Shown here piece after piece: positions 12,679 through 57,419 of a stretch of 64,000 bases of DNA. Source of the stretch: Corynebacterium sp. TAE3-ERU12. GTDB lineage: Bacteria; Actinomycetota; Actinomycetes; Mycobacteriales; Mycobacteriaceae. Made by a program: the position numbers and the translations under genes. Below the pieces are notes generated by a model. That model did no database searches and was not told the DNA's origin. It saw only the letters and a list, made by a program, of their open reading frames with translations. The stretch spans positions 620,001-684,000 of the forward strand of contig NZ_JAHUTM010000001.1 in NCBI RefSeq assembly GCF_019209905.1, written 5' to 3'. Every line of letters begins with the position of its first letter. The stretch's first letter is position 1.

Positions 12679-12695
12679 CCATTTTCTTGCAGAAG

Positions 12696-12738
12696 AGGCT
12701 GCTGGCGTTGTTGTACAACAACGTCAGCAGCCTTTTTG
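12696..12738 (+). terminator. Rho-independent terminator after the tRNA-Ala pair
   Basis: AGGCTGCTG and CAGCAGCCT bracket a second perfect palindrome (CGTTGTTGTACAACAACG), giving a stem of about 19 base pairs with one mismatch, followed by TTTTT. Confidence 0.9.
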
Positions 12739-21431: not shown

Positions 21432-23132
21432 ATGACTGCAGTATCGCCGCGACCCAGTCAGGAAGTGACTGAGGTTGAGCGTCCTGCGCCTTTCGGTCAC
21501 TCCCGTAAGGGCAACTGGGCGTGGGAAATGCTGACGACGACGGACCATAAGAAGCTCGGCATCATGTACATCGTGATGAGCTTCACGTTCTTCTTCATCG
21601 GCGGTCTCATGGCCCTGCTCATCCGCGCTGAGTTGTTCCAGCCGGGCCTTCAGTTCCTATCCAACGAGCAGTTCAACCAGCTGTTCACCATGCACGGCAC
21701 GGTGATGCTGCTGCTGTTCGGTACCCCGATTGTGTGGGGTTTCGCTAACTACATCCTTCCGTTGCAGATCGGTGCCCCCGACGTGGCATTCCCGCGTCTG
21801 AACGCCTTCGGCTTCTGGCTGACCACCATCGGTGGCATCCTTATGCTGTCGGGCTTCCTCACCCCGGGTGGCGCTGCTGACTTCGGCTGGACCATGTACT
21901 CCCCGCTGTCCGACTCCATCCACTCTCCGAGCGTTGGCGCGGACCTGTGGATCGTCGGTGTTGGCGTCGGTGGTGTGGGCACCATTGCTTCCGCCATCAA
22001 CATGATCACCACCGTGCTGTGCCTCCGCGCACCCGGTATGACCACCTTCCGCATGCCGATCTTCACCTGGAACATCATGGTGACCTCGATCCTGGCACTG
22101 CTTATCTTCCCGGTTCTGACCGCCGCCGCTCTTGGCGTGCTCTACGACCGCAAGCTCGGTGGCCACATCTACGACCCGGCCAACGGTGGCTCCATCCTGT
22201 GGCAGCACCTCTTCTGGTTCTTCGGTCACCCCGAGGTCTACGTGCTGCTGCTGCCCTTCGTCGGCATCATCACCGAGGTTGTTCCGGTGTTCTCCCGTAA
22301 GCCGCTGTTCGGCTACGCCGGCATGGTCTTCGCGACCCTGTCGATTGCTGGCCTGTCCATGGCTGTGTGGGCTCACCACATGTTCGTCACCGGTGCTGTC
22401 CTGCTGCCGTTCTTCTCCTTCATGACCTTCCTGATTTCGGTGCCCACCGGTGTGAAGTTCTTCAACTGGCTCGGCACCATGTGGAAGGGTCACCTGACCT
22501 TCGAAACCCCGATCATCTTCGCTCTGGGCTTCATCGTGACCTTCCTCTTCGGTGGTCTGACCGGCATCATGATGGCCTCCCCGCCGCTGGACTTCCACAT
22601 CTCGGATACCTACTTCATCGTCGCGCACTTCCACTACACCCTCTTCGGCACCCTGGTGTTCGCCTCCTACTCGGGCGTGTACTTCTGGTTCCCGAAGATG
22701 ACCGGTCGCATGCTCGACGAGAAGCTTGGCAAGCTCCACTTCTGGCTGACCTTCATCGGCTTCCACTCCACCTTCCTCGTCCAGCACTGGCTGGGTAACG
22801 AAGGTATGCCGCGTCGTTACGCCGACTACCTGGCTACCGATGGCTGGACCACCCTGAACATGATTTCCACGGTTGGTTCCTTCATCCTCGGTATCTCGGT
22901 CCTGCCGTTCATCTGGAACGTCTTCAAGTCCATCCGTTACGGCGAGGTCGTCACTGTCGATGACCCGTGGGGCTACGGCAACTCCCTCGAGTGGGCCACC
23001 TCCTGCCCGCCGCCGCGCCACAACTTCACCTCCATGCCGCGTATCCGCTCCGAGCGCCCCGCGTTCGAGCTGCACTACCCGCACATGGTCGAGCGCATGC
23101 GTGCCGAGGCCCACGTCGGCCCCCAGCTCTAA
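21432..23132 (+). CDS. ctaD: Cytochrome c oxidase (aa3) subunit I
   Basis: A 566-residue haem-copper oxidase subunit with twelve membrane helices; it reduces oxygen to water in the cytochrome bc1-aa3 chain. Signature residues are the low-spin haem histidine in [13 protein letters not shown] (near 85), the HPEVY copper/cross-linked Tyr motif (near 267), the CuB pair in WAHHMFVTG (near 315) and the haem a3 region [16 protein letters not shown] (near 395). The gene stands alone between nrdF and serB; subunits II-IV are elsewhere. Strong codon bias (many C-ending codons) suggests high expression. Confidence 0.98.
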
Positions 23133-23174: not shown

Positions 23175-23213
23175 ACCGCGCCCCCAACCACACCGGTTGG
23201 GGGCGCGGTTTTG
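23175..23213 (+). terminator. Rho-independent terminator of ctaD
   Basis: ACCGCGCCCCCAACC and GGTTGGGGGCGCGGT make a perfect 15-base stem with a 5-base loop, followed by TTTTGT. Just before it are several short AGCTATAGCTGC-type repeats (23140-23174). Confidence 0.9.
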
Positions 23214-23248
23214 TCTGCTGCCGGGCCTGTGCGCCCGGTCTCAGCAAG

Positions 23249-23312
23249 GATCCGTACCTTTTGCGCAGATCCGTGCGAAATTCCGTACGGATCTGCGCAA
23301 ACGGTACGGATC
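23249..23312. repeat. Long inverted repeat (26-base arms) upstream of serB
   Basis: Arms at 23249-23274 and 23287-23312 are reverse complements with one mismatch, around a 12-base loop. Each arm itself contains the shorter motif GATCCGT twice in related form (GATCCGTACC and CAGATCCGT). A smaller stem CCGGGC/GCCCGG lies just before it (23221-23238). It is not followed by a T run and comes after a complete terminator, so it is not needed to end ctaD transcription. Confidence 0.9.
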
Positions 23313-23320
23313 TGCCATCA

Positions 23321-23428
23321 CAGCGCCCCGCCGAGCAGCGCAGCGCCGCGCCGAGCCCCGCCGAGCAGCGCCGCGCCGAGCCCCGCCGAGCAGCGCCCCG
23401 CCGAGCAGAGCAGCGCAGCGCCGAACCC
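23321..23428. repeat. GC-rich tandem array (25-base unit)
   Basis: The stretch is built from CCGAGC, AGCGC and CCCCG blocks. A 25-base unit is present in two perfect back-to-back copies (23343-23367 and 23368-23392), with shortened or diverged copies before and after. The unit is not a multiple of three, and no stop-free frame here looks like protein. It ends about 45 bases before serB. Confidence 0.85.
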
Positions 23429-23474: not shown

Positions 23475-24752
23475 GTGAGCACCGACATTTCTAATGCCCC
23501 ATCGGATATCTCGACCGTGGCCCTGCCCGACGGATTCGTTCGCGCAGTAGTCACCGCCACCGGCGCCGACCGGCCCGGCGTCTCAGCCGCTTTCTTCCGG
23601 GTACTCTCCGCCCACGGCGCGCAGCTACTCGACGTCGAACAGGCCGTCTTCCGGGAACGCCTCTCGCTTGCCACCCTCATCGGCGTGCGCGGCGACAAAC
23701 TCGACACGATGTCCTCCGGGCTGCAGGAAACCCTGCGCAGTTATGGCATGACGGTGCGGGTATCCACAGACGCGGCCAATTCCACCCGGCACGCCTCAAC
23801 CCACGCTGTTGTCGTGCTGGGCAACCCGGTGACCGCCGCCAATATCTCCCGCCTCGGCCAGGTGCTGGCCGACTATGGGGCCAATATCGACACCATCCGC
23901 GGTATCGCTGACTATCCCGTAACCGGCCTGGAGCTCAAGGTCACCATCGCCAACCCCAAACCAGGTGGCGGTGTCCCGCTGCGTAAGGCCCTGGCTGAGC
24001 TAGCACTGGACTCCGGTCTTGATATTGCGATCGAGCGCGATGGTTTGCAGCGTCGCTCCAAACGCCTGATCTGCTTCGATGTGGACTCCACCCTCATCAC
24101 CGGTGAGGTCATCGAGATGCTCGCCGCCCACGCTGGTCGTGAGGCCGAGGTTGCTGCTGTGACCGAACGCGCCATGCGCGGCGAGCTTGATTTCGCCGAG
24201 TCCCTGCATGAGCGGGTCAAGGCCCTGGCCGGTCTGCCGGAATCCGTGCTGCACGAGGTCAGTAACCAGGTCGAGCTCACCCCGGGTGCGCGGACCACGA
24301 TTCGTACTCTGAAACGGCTGGGCTATAAAACCGGTGCGGTCTCTGGTGGCTTTATTCAGATTCTGAAGCCGTTGGCGGAAGACCTCGGCCTGGACTTCTA
24401 CCGCGCTAATACCTTGGAAATTGTTGACGGCAAGCTCACCGGCCGGGTTATCGGCGATGTGGTTGACCGGCAGGAAAAGGCCCGCAGCATCAAGGAATTC
24501 GCCGCCGAATCCGGTCTGGTGATGCACCAGACGGTGGCCGTTGGTGATGGCGCCAATGATATTGACATGCTTTCCGTGGCCGGCCTGGGCATTGCTTTTA
24601 ACGCCAAGCCGGCGCTCAAGGAGGTCGCGGATACCTCGGTGAATAATCCGTTCCTTGATGAGGTGCTGTTCTTCCTCGGTATTACCCGCGATGAGATTGA
24701 GCACGCCGACCGCGAGGACGGCACCCTGCGCCGGGTGCCGCTTGAGCAGTAA
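23475..24752 (+). CDS. serB: Phosphoserine phosphatase with N-terminal ACT domains
   Basis: A 425-residue enzyme for the last step of serine synthesis. Residues 1-190 hold two ACT-like regulatory domains (RAVVTATGADRPGVSAAFF, then AVVVLGNPVTAANISRLGQVL). The HAD phosphatase domain starts at CFDVDSTLITGEVIEML near 200 (nucleophile Asp in DVDST) and ends with VAVGDGANDIDMLSVAGLGIAF. This layout matches actinobacterial SerB2. GTG at 23475 is the start because the frame upstream runs through the repeat array and encodes low-complexity Arg/Ala/Pro sequence. The stop shares a base with the next gene's start. Confidence 0.94.
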   Translation: MSTDISNAPSDISTVALPDGFVRAVVTATGADRPGVSAAFFRVLSAHGAQLLDVEQAVFRERLSLATLIGVRGDKLDTMSSGLQETLRSYGMTVRVSTDAANSTRHASTHAVVVLGNPVTAANISRLGQVLADYGANIDTIRGIADYPVTGLELKVTIANPKPGGGVPLRKALAELALDSGLDIAIERDGLQRRSKRLICFDVDSTLITGEVIEMLAAHAGREAEVAAVTERAMRGELDFAESLHERVKALAGLPESVLHEVSNQVELTPGARTTIRTLKRLGYKTGAVSGGFIQILKPLAEDLGLDFYRANTLEIVDGKLTGRVIGDVVDRQEKARSIKEFAAESGLVMHQTVAVGDGANDIDMLSVAGLGIAFNAKPALKEVADTSVNNPFLDEVLFFLGITRDEIEHADREDGTLRRVPLEQ

Positions 24753-57376: not shown

Positions 57377-57419
57377 AAACCCCCAACTACCAGGAGAAAC
57401 TACTGGCAGTTGGGGGTTT
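57377..57419. terminator. Bidirectional hairpin left of the prophage
   Basis: AAACCCCCAACT and AGTTGGGGGTTT pair perfectly over 12 bases around an inner ACCAG/CTGG stem. Both sides carry T/A runs. It marks the border between the toxin module and the integrase end of the prophage. Confidence 0.8.

Follow-up and report, generated by a model that had tools for sequence, protein, structure and literature searches.

A REP-Like Dispersed Palindrome Ahead of serB in Corynebacterium sp. TAE3-ERU12 and a Family of the Same Layout in the Corynebacterium halotolerans Lineage

The inverted repeat ahead of serB in Corynebacterium sp. TAE3-ERU12 is probably a member of a family of REP-like extragenic palindromes that spread in the past and now persist at nearly harmless sites. 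The family is best read as not visibly moving at present; its member beside serB most likely rides along as a passenger in the leader or the intergenic DNA and would influence the serB mRNA passively at most. The family is ordinary in kind and unusual in build, and its interest lies mainly in how a related family, found in the C. halotolerans lineage, keeps its symmetry.

Structure and Position of the Palindrome

The window, i.e., the whole stretch of 64,000 nucleotides that was analyzed, carries the core palindrome at positions 23249-23312. Direct reading bore out the account in the earlier note of 26-base arms with one mismatch and a 12-base loop: positions 23249-23274 pair with 23287-23312 through 25 of 26 Watson-Crick pairs and enclose a loop at 23275-23286, and a repeat search extends the arms to 32 bases each at 91% complementarity. 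Folded as RNA, 23240-23320 has a computed energy of -55.7 kcal/mol and closes on a loop of 6 bases, whereas 200 shuffles of the same stretch averaged -19.87 (sd 3.05) and none was as stable (z of -11.75); the stability of the palindrome is far beyond chance. The GATCCGT repeats that had been noticed within the arms occur four times, twice on each strand, and mark the modules of a dispersed element of about 70 bp, the copy of which spans 23245-23316 on the + strand, its orientation being given by the shared asymmetric loop GTGCGAAATTCCGTAC. An outer-left module, GATCCGTAC (23249-23257, +), is followed after 19 bp by the inner-left module, GATCCGTGC (23268-23276, +), and then by two inverted modules, both GATCCGTAC, namely the inner-right (23285-23293, -) and the outer-right one, 19 bp from it (23304-23312, -).

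The palindrome lies between ctaD, encoding cytochrome c oxidase subunit I (21432-23132, +), and serB, encoding phosphoserine phosphatase (23475-24752, +), for which a GTG start is placed at 23475 by the match range of relatives and the coding score. It begins 40 bases past the ctaD intrinsic terminator (23175-23209, +; 15 pairs and a T tail), which is separate from the element, and stands about 160 bases ahead of the likely serB start. The intervening gap is filled by G+C-rich degenerate direct repeats of the CCGAGCAGCGC type (23321-23428; family D1 of the repeat search), and G+C-rich simple repeats also adjoin several other copies of the element.

The palindrome follows a complete ctaD terminator and has no T tract of its own, as the earlier note had stated. 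Neither a promoter-like nor a terminator-like site was detected within the window copy, and a T tract, taken as 5 or more T among 8 bases on either strand, stands beside none of the 31 genomic copies. Among the inverted repeats of the window with arms of at least 20 bases, loops of 3-20 bases and at most 2 mismatches, the palindrome is the longest of three. The other two (12693-12736 and 57377-57419) are near-perfect, with arms of 20 bases and loops of 4 and 3 bases, respectively, and, carrying T or A runs at their ends, look like ordinary terminators.

A Dispersed Family in the TAE3-ERU12 Genome

When the genome from which the window comes (2,216,457 bases in 6 contigs) was searched by sequence, 66 matches to the palindrome were obtained; the merged places numbered 32, one of them an 18-bp fragment. 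With a covariance model derived from these copies, the full-length matches numbered 62, corresponding to 31 places, each matched on both strands. None of these 31 copies lies inside a gene as called by the rough, simple gene caller made for this analysis. The suggestion of a small dispersed repeat, REP-like or MITE, was therefore right as to kind.

The element consists of two direct modules of the GCAGATCCGTAC type, 19 bp apart, followed by an inverted copy of the pair, an arrangement that lets a single strand fold up as one long hairpin. The consensus of the 31 copies is GGCAGATCCGTACCAATTGCGCAGATCCGTGCGAAATTCCGTACGGATCTGCGCAATTGGTACGGATCTGC(C/G), and 35 of the 76 alignment columns are invariant. 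The inner-left module reads AGATCC in 30 of the 31 copies; the outer-left reads AGATCC in 20, AAACCC in 9 and AAATCC in 2, the inner-right GGATCT in 18, GGGTTT in 11 and other sequences in 2, and the outer-right GGATCT in 28 and GGGTTT in 3, from which it follows that two substitutions tend to move as a pair. Pairing at the 31 stem positions averages 83% (range 71-94%; 87% in the window copy), and none of 19 base pairs is changed on both sides; the 31 copies therefore give no covariation evidence for RNA function, and, taking the mean pairing into account, arm copying is not demonstrated in the TAE3-ERU12 genome. Strand-biased G-U variation in the inner stem was considered as evidence for RNA and rejected, because the events are few and the outer stem varies oppositely.

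Most copies are single, several form pairs about 200-260 bp apart, and a triple is found at 184 kb of contig C4. Four of the pairs enclose a common spacer of about 165 bp and make up composites of about 330 bp that are 89-95% identical and sit at 55-144 kb on contig C1; arrays of the BIME type with a conserved spacer are accordingly present, in the form of these four composites alongside the other pairs and the triple. The copy at C1:90465 has a third module on one side, i.e., an extra 19 bp.

Distribution in Relatives and Elsewhere

Of the properties that the earlier note named for a refutation, uniqueness does not hold, since the sequence is multi-copy, but blastn detected it in none of 100 relatives. 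The ctaD-serB gaps of 9 relatives, the closest (G001) included, were compared by eye (9 gaps extracted from 29 loci) and are without the palindrome. Plasmids and phages gave no blastn match, and the exact core pattern had no match in genome_contigs or viral_contigs, from which the records of the window's genome were possibly left out. In a looser scan of genome_contigs, most of the matches outside Corynebacterium among those listed (80 of 105 stretches) are single, and they are not claimed as relatives. Two Arthrobacter records carry single palindromes with TGCGCAGATCCGG arms (L176, 3353-3387, and L214, 3999-4048), the latter running beyond the searched pattern. The Chlamydiae MAG BWOrgHeat_Nextera10_MAG1 has a dispersed palindrome of its own, TGCGCAAATCC...GGATTTGCGCA, on many contigs (L183, L206, L217 and others), which is presumably unrelated to the Corynebacterium family.

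A stricter covariance-model screen of 242 genomes found G000, G117 (weak matches) and G158 and missed G157, which gave 35 matches when searched alone with the model; absence in that screen is therefore weak evidence. The pattern GCGCARAHCCN{8,36}GGDTYTGCGC matched 8 of the 242 genomes, with 25 matches in G000, 11 in G158, 10 in G157, and one or two in each of G117, G130, G232, G233 and G235, and its reversed control matched none of the 242. A report of the palindrome family was not found in the literature, where the C. diphtheriae survey (PMC2267715) was available for comparison in part and without its sequences.

A Similarly Built Family in the C. halotolerans Lineage

The covariance model revealed a second family in G158, AACCCACCCCGAATGCGCAGACCCACCCG-loop-CGGGTGGGTCTGCGCATTCGGGGTGGGTT, with modules likewise 19 bp apart and GCGCAGAYCC in common, and a scan by pattern showed that Corynebacterium halotolerans 307_CHAL (G157) carries this family too. 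It differs from the TAE3-ERU12 family in sequence and agrees with it in layout. The similarity of the arms was equaled by 201 of 20,000 shuffles, and since it is modest and was tested post hoc, common descent of the two families, for which the layout speaks as well, is rated only as likely.

The element is present in both genomes at 20 sites, to which three more were added later, making 23 of the 24 resolvable sites common to G157 and G158; a clean insertion is seen at none of the 24. At the remaining site (L308/L342), G158 is without a 399-bp block that includes the element and is larger than it, and the block has ends like those left when short repeats recombine in a deletion. A search of this site for a shared insertion boundary gave none. 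Outside the resolved set are C17:75719, C31:7928 and C15:30947 among the 26 loci of G157 and the G158 loci near 547 and 3070 kb, and the G158 loci near 312 and 2764 kb fall where contigs of G157 end. Two contigs of G157 (L345 and L347) apparently stop at an element or close to it, as if palindromes break short-read assemblies.

Orthologous copies differ in array length at L301/L161, L317/L327, L323/L332, L337/L333 and L338/L331, and half-units can recur every 43 bp. Inversion of the loop is exact in 2 of the 23 orthologous pairs and has one mismatch in 2 others, and complementary changes in both arms are found at L295/L335, L305/L168 and L302/L343. Among the 20 ungapped pairs, i.e., leaving out L324/L164 for a one-base gap and L321/L334 and L340/L159 for a replaced module, 3 paired arm changes stand against 0.14 expected (P of about 0.0002), a statistic that was chosen after the pairs were seen; counting any coincident change in all 23 pairs gives 3 against 0.62 (P=0.015), and the 19 pairs with at most 6 differences give 2 against 0.34 (P=0.038).

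Template switching is described as homogenizing arms and inverting spacers in PMC8604942 and PMC8794818. The paired changes and loop inversions of the G157/G158 family have this signature, and the arms appear to be kept matching by copying. The paired changes could also come from selection for the hairpin or from conversion by a different copy. Within the fetched stretches, each of the three right-arm variants occurs at one locus only and two of the three left-arm variants occur once more elsewhere; this distribution favors change in place over replacement by another copy. Pair-preserving double changes are found in this family, where template switching also accounts for them.

In the mechanism that we propose for the C. 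halotolerans-lineage family, template switching at a hairpin formed during replication would copy one arm onto the other in place, which would change both arms together and could invert the loop, and misaligned direct modules would lengthen or shorten the arrays. In TAE3-ERU12, the copies would have spread at some earlier time and would remain today at sites where they are nearly harmless; they may be maintained in the same way, an extension from the other family that the TAE3-ERU12 genome alone does not show. A wider version, which we consider rather unlikely, would unite these elements in a genus-level superfamily, built on a 19-bp module of the GCGCAGAYCC type and devoid of a transposase, that is spread and kept by replication errors alone: template switching would make and mend the palindrome and invert its loop, slippage would grow the modules, and the elements would accumulate near the origin.

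Gene Context, Origin Bias and Alternative Explanations

The Y1 transposase family PF01797 (E≤0.1) is absent from the TAE3-ERU12, G157 and G158 genomes, whereas 8 of 14 control genomes were positive in the same search. The 85 neighbor proteins matched 170 Pfam families, the 25 most frequent of which are metabolic or housekeeping families with no transposase or recombinase among them, and no longer element with the ends of the palindrome emerged from the own-genome search. The Y1 search and the neighbor families are also the results that bear, indirectly, on the recombinase target suggested in the earlier note. Gap orientation was classified for 22 of the 23 TAE3-ERU12 loci (the exception, C1:90465, is at the border of a fetched stretch). 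Of the gaps that hold the element, 10 of 22 are convergent and 2 of 22 divergent; for the other gaps of 150 bp or more in these fetched regions, the figures are 8 of 69 (P=0.0013) and 23 of 69 (P=0.029), respectively. The convergent bias is not repeated in G158, where 23 of 25 loci were classified (6 of 23 against 28 of 78; P=0.46).

The dnaA gene lies at 41.9 kb on contig C1, and 9 of the 23 loci are found 14-102 kb from it on one arm (C1:55-144 kb; L031-L035). The origin half holds 16 or 18 of the 23 loci, with a KS P of 0.0003 for either contig order, the order itself being deduced from where markers lie in G010, a genome in which dnaA was not located. For G158, a sequence motif puts dnaA at the start, and 17 of 25 loci fall in the origin half (P=0.034) in a list that omits two later-found copies, near 226 and 1784 kb. 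The copies within composites do not count as independent, so the excess near the origin is treated as a lead only.

That the palindrome is a MITE, i.e., a DNA transposon that is not autonomous and depends on a DDE or other transposase acting in trans, from the present or a former genome, would agree with copies that are dispersed, short, palindromic and lineage-specific, and with the four closely similar composites, each of two palindromes around a shared spacer. However, no shared target duplication is apparent by eye in the flanks, and the 24 sites of the sister lineage offer no clean insertion, their single difference being deletion-like; we regard this explanation as unlikely. Less probable still are binding sites for a chromosomal protein of the nucleoid, of replication or of segregation, with four modules per element and a location mainly near the origin. 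The four module copies at 19-bp spacing, a sequence conservation that exceeds what pairing demands, as seen in the invariant columns, and the excess in the origin half of both genomes speak for such sites, although that excess depends on the contig order taken from G010, on the shortened G158 list and on a cluster that includes the four related composites, and the tested relatives are without the element, which would be odd for a core function.

A structured RNA, acting as a leader of serB, a 3'-end stabilizer or a bidirectional terminator of the neighboring genes, is highly improbable. The very stable fold and the convergent excess in TAE3-ERU12, with its deficit of divergent gaps, speak for such an RNA, yet the excess is absent in G158 and the gene calls behind it come from our own rough caller. 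Moreover, all 31 copies lack a T tract, no pair is changed on both sides, and the best Rfam score, 32.7 bits against a gathering threshold of 100, came with microRNA families only, which were rejected. The serB leader proposed in the earlier note is unsupported, as the same sequence stands beside many unrelated genes and the serB of the nearest relative does without it. A REP-like palindrome family that spread in the past is retained as the preferred reading, and it is compared with known systems below.

Comparison with Known Repeat Systems

As a rule, REP-like repeats are associated with RAYT transposases. A RAYT-less family whose copies can be traced between sister genomes would make the upkeep of bacterial palindromes by template switching measurable, and it would warn that paired changes in a hairpin do not prove a function as RNA.

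The TAE3-ERU12 element is REP/BIME-like and lacks two of the defining features, the GTAG tag and RAYT. Its 31 copies, none in a called gene, are dispersed extragenic palindromes, and they resemble the REP, BIME and REPIN elements of PMC3116915 and PMC3733652 in being short, capable of forming hairpins, present in many copies, and single, paired or arrayed. They differ from these in their length of about 70 bp with nested 19-bp direct modules, in numbering 31 rather than hundreds, and in being found in a genome that, like those of G157 and G158, has no RAYT (Y1). GTAG-like tags were seen in 11 and CGTC-like tags in 3 of the 31 copies by a loose 4-mer match in 12-base end windows, counts that have no chance control. 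The CGTC-tagged REPs described in PMC3733652 are likewise palindromic and have no known transposase, but the CGTC tag is present in just those 3 copies. Bacterial MITEs (PMC10969869) are likewise short, non-coding inverted-repeat elements, but neither a target duplication nor a parent transposon was found for the TAE3-ERU12 element. A parallel for the C. halotolerans-type family in the homogenization of arms, paired changes and inversion of the spacer is provided by the inverted repeats attributed to template switching in PMC8604942 and PMC8794818, which concern yeast genes and RNA genes, whereas here the same changes are met in a dispersed bacterial repeat family.
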